Below, in pieces: positions 1,413-2,933 of a stretch of 64,000 nt of DNA. The stretch spans positions 1 to 64,000 of the forward strand of contig CANFWV010000005.1 of NCBI GenBank assembly GCA_947450695.1. The letters run 5' to 3'. This stretch comes from Comamonadaceae bacterium (GTDB lineage: Bacteria; Pseudomonadota; Gammaproteobacteria; Burkholderiales; Burkholderiaceae_C). The translations under genes and the position numbers were made by a program. The notes below the pieces were generated by a model. That model worked only from the letters and a program-made list of their open reading frames with translations. It did no database searches and had not been told where the DNA came from. Positions within the stretch are counted from its first letter, which is position 1. Each line of letters begins with the position of its first letter.

Positions 1413-1415
1413 GGA

Positions 1416-1503
1416 CTCACCTTGGGACAAAGGTGAGCGTGGTTGCGGGAATCTGCTCCCAAGCCTGACGAAACCTGGGTTTCGCTGCAACGCTCCTTGA
1501 GAA
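1416..1503 (-). ncRNA. S-adenosylhomocysteine (SAH) riboswitch in the leader of the metH C-terminal gene
   Basis: Minus-strand CTCAAGGAGCGTTGCAGCGAAACCCAGGTTTCGTCAGGCTTGGGAGCAGATTCCCGCAACCACGCTCACCTT matches the SAH aptamer pattern (GAGCGyUGC..., GnCAGGCU, ...GCUCAC). GAGCG/CGCTC and TTG/CAA pair, and the CTCACCTT segment can alternatively pair with the RBS AAGGTGAG. Confidence 0.85.
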
Positions 1504-1529
1504 GGCCGTTATTTTAACCGGTCTACGCG

Positions 1530-1808
1530 TCAGGGATCACGCAGCAGCAGCAGCATCTGTTCGACCGCATAACCACAATCCCGCGGCCCGCGCAGGCAGT
1601 GCTGGGCAATCGGCTCGACACTGACGGTTTGGACCGCCATACCGGGGCGCTGGACACTCAATTGCCCTGGTGCGGTGACTGTCACGACGTAATCTGGGTA
1701 TTGACCAACGATTTTTCCGGACAGCAAAACATCCCAGGAGGGCGGCTTTTGGCCGCAAGCTACCAGCACGGCGGCTGCCGCTAGCAGCAGGCATCGCCAG
1801 TGCGTCAA
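1530..1808 (-). CDS. Small predicted lipoprotein, TTG start overlapping the metH N-part stop
   Basis: 92 aa with signal peptide and lipobox LVAC; TTGA overlap with upstream metH stop. Confidence 0.6.
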
Positions 1809-2851
1809 GCCGCCTCTTTATAGAACCCGCCAGATGTCAAACCGCGCGGGCCGAAAGGCGCCACCGCCTGGTGAATCGCGCCAATATGCTCGGGTGTGGT
1901 GCCACAGCAGCCGCCGACGATGTTGACCAAGCCTTCGTCCGCAAACTCACGCAGCAGACGGCTGGTGACGTCGGGAGTTTCGTCAAAGCCAGTGTCGCTC
2001 ATGGGGTTGGGCAGGCCGGCGTTCGGGTAGCAGCTGATATAAGTGTCGCCAGCGACCCTGGCCAACTCCTGAATGTAGGGCCGCATGAGCGTGGCGCCCA
2101 ACGCGCAGTTCAAGCCGATGGCCAGCGGCTGGGCATGGCGAACGCTGTGCCAGAAAGCCGTCACTGTCTGGCCGCTCAAGATGCGGCCCGACGCATCGGT
2201 CACGGTGCCGCTGATGATCAGAGGCAAGCGCTCGCCGGAGTTGTCAAAGTACTCGTCGATGGCAAACAACGCGGCCTTGGCGTTGAGCGTGTCAAAAATG
2301 GTTTCGACCAGCAACACGTCGCTGCCGCCTTTGACCAGCGCTTCAGTCTGCTCGTAATAGGCTTTGCGCAGTTCTTCAAAGCTGGTGTTGCGGGCGCCGG
2401 GATCATTCACATCGGGGCTGATGCTGGCTGTTTTGGGCGTCGGGCCGAGGGCGCCGACGACGAAACGCGGTTTATCGGGGGTTGAATATTTGTCACAGGC
2501 AGCACGGGCAATTCGCGCCGATTCGTAGTTCATCTCAATCGCCAACTCCGCCATGTCGTAGTCAGCTTGGGCCACGGTGGTGGCGCCAAAGGTATTGGTC
2601 TCGATCATGTCGGCACCCGCCGCAAGATAGCCTTCGTGGATGTCCTGAATCACATCCGGACGGGTCAGACTCAAGAGCTCGTTGTTGCCTTTGACGTCTT
2701 TGTGAAAGTCTTTGAACCGCTCGCCACGGTATTGCGCTTCATTGAGTTTGAAGCGCTGGATCATGGTGCCCATCGCGCCGTCCAAGATGGCGATGCGTTT
2801 TTCAAGAAGGGCGGGCAGCGCTTGGCCGCGGGTGTAATTAAAGGCTTTCAT
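1805..2851 (-). CDS. metH: Methionine synthase N-terminal part (homocysteine S-methyltransferase domain)
   Basis: [36 protein letters not shown]...[12 protein letters not shown]; the ORF track N-terminus (to 3136) is an upstream over-extension. Confidence 0.93.
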
Positions 2852-2933
2852 GGCCGCTATTGTAGAAAGGCTGCTAAAAAAAAATAGCCGGCTGGGTCTT
2901 TCCCCGACAATAGGGAGATTGCCTGATCTGACT

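Follow-up and report, generated by a model that had tools for sequence, protein, structure and literature searches.

In the stretch of Comamonadaceae DNA analysed here (the window, 64,000 nucleotides), methionine synthase is split: its homocysteine-methyltransferase part (metH-N) and its pterin/B12 part (metH-C) are separate open reading frames, and a leader resembling an SAH riboswitch lies between them. The locus raises the question of which half this leader controls, by what mechanism, and whether it acts inside a metH operon or on a transcript of its own. The initial annotation, made from the letters alone, had read it as a translational switch within the operon, acting only on metH-C.

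The aptamer and its place in the family

Pfam and NCBIfam profile matches agree with the gene assignments first proposed for the two halves. The small lipoprotein-like ORF between them has a relative in one locus only among the loci searched, from the same genus. For the leader itself, an Infernal search (cmscan) matched the Rfam model of the SAH riboswitch, RF01057, over model positions 1-78 of 78 with 56.5 bits (E 9.7e-8) against a gathering score of 37, and so confirmed the riboswitch proposed for this region. All 27 of the 27 columns that are invariant among 31 family aptamers are kept, pseudoknot strands included. The location given earlier (1413-1503) was right and its ends were not, since the aptamer begins at 1504 and the Shine-Dalgarno site with the start codon extends to 1410, on the reverse strand. 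The helix GAGCG/CGCTC, which had been taken for P1, is the pseudoknot; P1 is formed by two other strands (Table 1).

This riboswitch class, which is said to go back to Wang et al. in 2008, shares with the window element both the aptamer, as judged by the covariance model, and the target pathway. No categorical difference separates the two, the target in the window being one half of a split enzyme. The ON logic that the link of the class to SAH recycling genes leads one to expect would apply to the window alike. The element is best regarded as an ordinary SAH-class aptamer, and binding of SAH is predicted. It is the only RF01057 match in the assembly searched. A second copy would be expected upstream of ahcY, and it is probably missing because this gene is incomplete on its contig, where AhcY is present only as a C-terminal fragment comprising the last 48 profile positions (G000:C100:7054-7197).

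Across the family, RF01057 was found in 295 of 301 genomes, mostly twice in each, and the split metH halves in nearly all of the 151 genomes searched. One hundred regions upstream of metH-C were fetched and searched with a model built from the 31 family aptamers. In 91 of them the aptamer immediately precedes metH-C, a placement before a gene of the SAH cycle that is the same as in the window. In these loci metH-N may be as close as about 50 bp, as far as hundreds of kb, or on a separate contig. Because the aptamer stays directly upstream of metH-C whatever the distance of metH-N, the riboswitch is to be assigned to metH-C rather than to a metH operon. The claim that only the pterin/cobalamin half is controlled is borne out by this position and by the masking stem on metH-C described below, whereas the view of such control as unusual is not: a switch on the metH-C half alone is, as far as the leader sequences tell, the rule of the family and not a peculiarity of this locus.

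Table 1. Features of the split metH locus, in window coordinates
Feature	Position	Strand	Basis
metH-C, pterin-binding and B12-binding half of split methionine synthase; ATG 1412-1410; cut by contig end	1..1412	-	Pfam Pterin_bind, B12-binding_2; NCBIfam metH positions 325-750
Shine-Dalgarno arm AAGGUGAGU; Shine-Dalgarno AAGG 7 nt from ATG	1415..1423	-	stem pairing
SAH riboswitch aptamer (RF01057)	1428..1504	-	cmscan; invariant columns of 31 family aptamers
Anti-Shine-Dalgarno arm GCUCACCUU	1430..1438	-	9-bp stem with 1423-1415; covariation across family
Pseudoknot 3′ strand CGCUC; last 4 bases shared with anti-Shine-Dalgarno arm	1435..1439	-	family-invariant; overlap read in sequence
P1, 3′ strand UUGGGAG	1456..1462	-	Rfam alignment
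P2 hairpin CGAAAC/GUUUCG	1468..1485	-	Rfam alignment
Pseudoknot 5′ strand GAGCG	1491..1495	-	complementary to CGCUC; family-invariant
P1, 5′ strand UUCUCAA	1497..1503	-	Rfam alignment
Putative -10 box TAAAAT of metH-C transcript; predicted start ~1505-1504	1511..1516	-	conserved position in family leaders
Small lipoprotein-like ORF, 92 aa, TTG start; overlaps metH-N end	1530..1808	-	ORF list; LptM-like N-terminus below cut-off
metH-N, homocysteine S-methyltransferase half of split methionine synthase	1805..2851	-	Pfam S-methyl_trans, 322 bits
Putative -10 box TACAAT of metH-N; starts 13 nt before ATG	2859..2864	-	same geometry in family metH-N genes

The stem that masks the metH-C Shine-Dalgarno site

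The predicted switch hairpin, CTCACCTT/AAGGTGAG, is present in the window leader and covers the Shine-Dalgarno site of metH-C. Its 5′ arm (GCTCACCTT) and its 3′ arm (AAGGTGAGT) enclose a 6-nt loop, UGUCCC, and the predicted energy of -11.9 kcal/mol is reached by 0.2% of shuffles. The 9-bp stem overlaps the 3′ strand of the pseudoknot, so that it and the ligand-bound fold exclude each other. In 100 of 117 family leaders, where shuffles lead one to expect 1.9, the CGCTC region pairs with the leader just downstream of it in a stem of 7 bp or more; the Shine-Dalgarno site usually lies inside the 3′ arm, 6-7 nt before the ATG.

Covariation was assessed in 94 leaders by anchoring the core on GGTGAG, scoring the pairs outward from it and applying a permutation test. 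Pair 7 of the stem is formed in 75 leaders, as compared with 52 expected, and pair 8 in 61, as compared with 49 (permutation p < 0.0005 for each), and the combinations TA, GC, CG and AT are all found among the outward pairs. No covariation was detected at pair 9 in the same test, which limits the conserved stem to about 8-9 pairs. Of the 94 leaders, 80 have C or T facing the invariant G of the stem.

The competition between the two folds was also followed by barring CGCTC from pairing, which mimics the ligand-bound pseudoknot, in 74 leaders and in shuffled controls. The median weakening of the leader was 8.6 kcal/mol, and a loss of at least 3 kcal/mol occurred in 72 of the 74 versus 11% of the shuffled controls; the window leader went from -12.4 to -3.5 kcal/mol, a change of 8.9. 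The helix earlier proposed to mask the Shine-Dalgarno site in competition with the aptamer is in this way upheld by the 9-bp stem, by its covariation and by the folding comparison in which the pseudoknot strand was barred from pairing. The metH-C leader is well supported as a translational ON switch, with SAH binding itself predicted. Once the pseudoknot has formed, a 5-bp hairpin, ACCUU/AAGGU, of about -3.5 kcal/mol is predicted to remain over the core of the Shine-Dalgarno site, so that its release on ligand binding may be partial.

The simple masking model does not fit some 22 family leaders, whose GGTGAG arm is 26-58 nt upstream of the ATG. In several GC-rich leaders with this spacing (L140, L136, L147, L152 and L120, from G008, G035, G063, G128 and G130) the arm stands beside a hairpin of the GGCCGC/GCGGCC type, whose 3′ strand could re-pair with the region of the start codon in a possible two-step relay. 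The GGCCGC/GCGGCC hairpin is strong, and a second partner at the start codon was found 15 times versus 9.8 expected from shuffles; the relay is put forward as a weak lead.

Putative promoters of the two halves and alternative readings

Upstream of the aptamer, the motif TA[AGC]A[AC]T is present in each of the 90 family leaders aligned at the aptamer and in 0.8% of background 20-nt windows. It usually begins 18-19 nt before AGGAGCG, and it is found both where metH-N lies within 2.5 kb (43 of 43) and where it is far away or unlinked (47 of 47). When the leaders were aligned on this box, no enrichment of a -35 element (TTGACA, spacing 16-18) was seen (2.15 matches vs 2.19 in shuffles), and a simple promoter scan that requires a -35 found nothing for the window promoter. 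The mapped transcription starts of Burkholderia cenocepacia have the -10 consensus TAnAAT and a weak -35 (PMC4603805). The TAAAAT box in the gap after the lipoprotein gene most likely directs transcription of metH-C, with the first nucleotide of the aptamer as its start. Since a -10 box stands directly upstream of the aptamer in all these loci, with metH-N near or far, metH-C is most likely a separate transcript with its own promoter.

A different geometry is seen at metH-N. Of 63 family genomes, 55 have a -10 box that starts 12-15 nt before the ATG (37/43 with linked halves, 18/20 with unlinked ones), against a background of about 3.7% per 4-position window, as do 7 of the 8 named loci of Comamonadaceae type; this geometry is absent in Burkholderia-type split metH and, L212 excepted, in unsplit metH. 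Leaderless genes of B. cenocepacia carry a TA-rich box directly upstream (PMC4603805). A box at this distance predicts a leaderless mRNA, and the message of metH-N appears to be leaderless or near-leaderless, with its own promoter and no SAH switch. In one relative (L131, genome G140) metH-C lacks the aptamer and is preceded by TACAAT at 13 nt from its ATG; metH-C there may itself be leaderless.

These promoters bear on the initial placement of the riboswitch inside the metH operon, according to which metH-N, the lipoprotein gene and metH-C would share one polycistronic transcript and an internal riboswitch would tune the last cistron only. The three genes do follow one another in the same direction, with the end of metH-N overlapped by the lipoprotein ORF, and a search of the gap between this ORF and the aptamer gave no terminator supported beyond chance. 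The closeness of the two, noted earlier, holds, although the distance is 25 nt (stop codon 1532-1530) and not about 27. An aptamer internal to an operon, however, would be transcribed only from the promoter of the upstream gene, and the 25-nt gap contains a -10 box that stands just upstream of the aptamer in the same place in 90 of 90 leaders, 47 of which have metH-N far or unlinked. The polycistronic arrangement is therefore considered unlikely, and transcription may run on from metH-N and the lipoprotein gene into metH-C.

A leader hairpin that works as a terminator or antiterminator would be another way to control metH-C, and relatives suggest that the class can act so on metH. Azoarcus-like Betaproteobacteria with unsplit metH (L222, L227, L228 and L239) have the same aptamer as the window and, like it, a TAAAAT or TAAACT box just upstream. 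They differ from the window in their unsplit enzyme, and in two of them (L222:2906-3010 and L228:2815-2915) a terminator-like hairpin with a T run follows the aptamer and replaces the masking of the Shine-Dalgarno site, which suggests a transcriptional version of SAH control on metH. In the window the hairpin is instead followed by CCATG, and its 3′ arm is the Shine-Dalgarno sequence itself; control of this kind is very improbable here. Still less probable is that the aptamer has decayed, or is tuned to another ligand, and persists as a fossil upstream of metH-C. Every invariant core column is kept, the score is well over the cut-off, and covariation of the platform is seen throughout the family.

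The best explanation of the locus, held with a confidence of roughly 0.85, is an SAH aptamer that drives a translational ON switch for a separately transcribed metH-C. When SAH is scarce, GCUCACCUU would pair with AAGGUGAGU and the Shine-Dalgarno site would be masked. Bound SAH would let the pseudoknot GAGCG/CGCUC reclaim CUC, shortening the masking stem from 9 to 5 bp, and ribosomes could load, in a response whose size is likewise a matter of prediction. More MetH-C would then help to turn homocysteine, which SAH hydrolysis yields, into methionine and so would pull SAH breakdown forward. MetH-N would be made outside the switch, from its own promoter and a leaderless mRNA.

Known systems, natural variants and significance

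MetH is already known since 2014 as a target of SAH riboswitches specific to Comamonadaceae, beside ahcY and metF, according to the main text of Leyn et al. (PMC4239095). No discussion of the half that is controlled, the expression platform, the position of the promoter or a leaderless partner was found in that main text. A split MetH has been described for Burkholderia by GapMind (PMC7311316) and, as in the window, the S-methyltransferase half is apart from the pterin/B12/reactivation half, with the same split point. In the Burkholderia-type loci fetched, unlike the window, the two halves are directly adjacent, no aptamer separates them, and the promoter stands at an ordinary distance. What is new comprises the probable separate promoter of metH-C, the apparently leaderless metH-N and the switch on the other half in some relatives, of which no mention was found in a literature search that covered neither supplements nor subscription papers.

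The last of these points concerns genome G126 (L082:1713-1875) and Comamonadaceae bacterium OS-4 (L168:1046-1151), where the TAAAAT box, the aptamer and the masking stem precede metH-N and not metH-C. The stem still pairs there, with altered sequence just before the metH-N ATG, as GCTCACT/AGTGAGC in OS-4. In G126 the two halves overlap (TGATG), so that both could respond. In four other genomes (G002, G010, G053 and G027) metH-N abuts metH-C, and no aptamer was found there.

For the Comamonadaceae-like lineage as a whole, the balance tips slightly towards an enzyme whose homocysteine half is leaderless and independent of SAH and whose cobalamin/folate half is separately promoted and gated by SAH, so that two modes of initiation coexist and the supply of one half sets the output of the enzyme, the switch having moved to the other half in G126 and OS-4. 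Such a lineage would show how regulation is reassigned when an enzyme gene splits, one half keeping the riboswitch and the other gaining a message of its own, probably leaderless. With the two relatives that carry the switch on the other half, nature would offer a clean test of whether control of a two-part enzyme can rest on limiting one of its subunits, and also of what leaderless initiation serves. The family-wide covariation defines an ON platform for bench work on SAH riboswitches.
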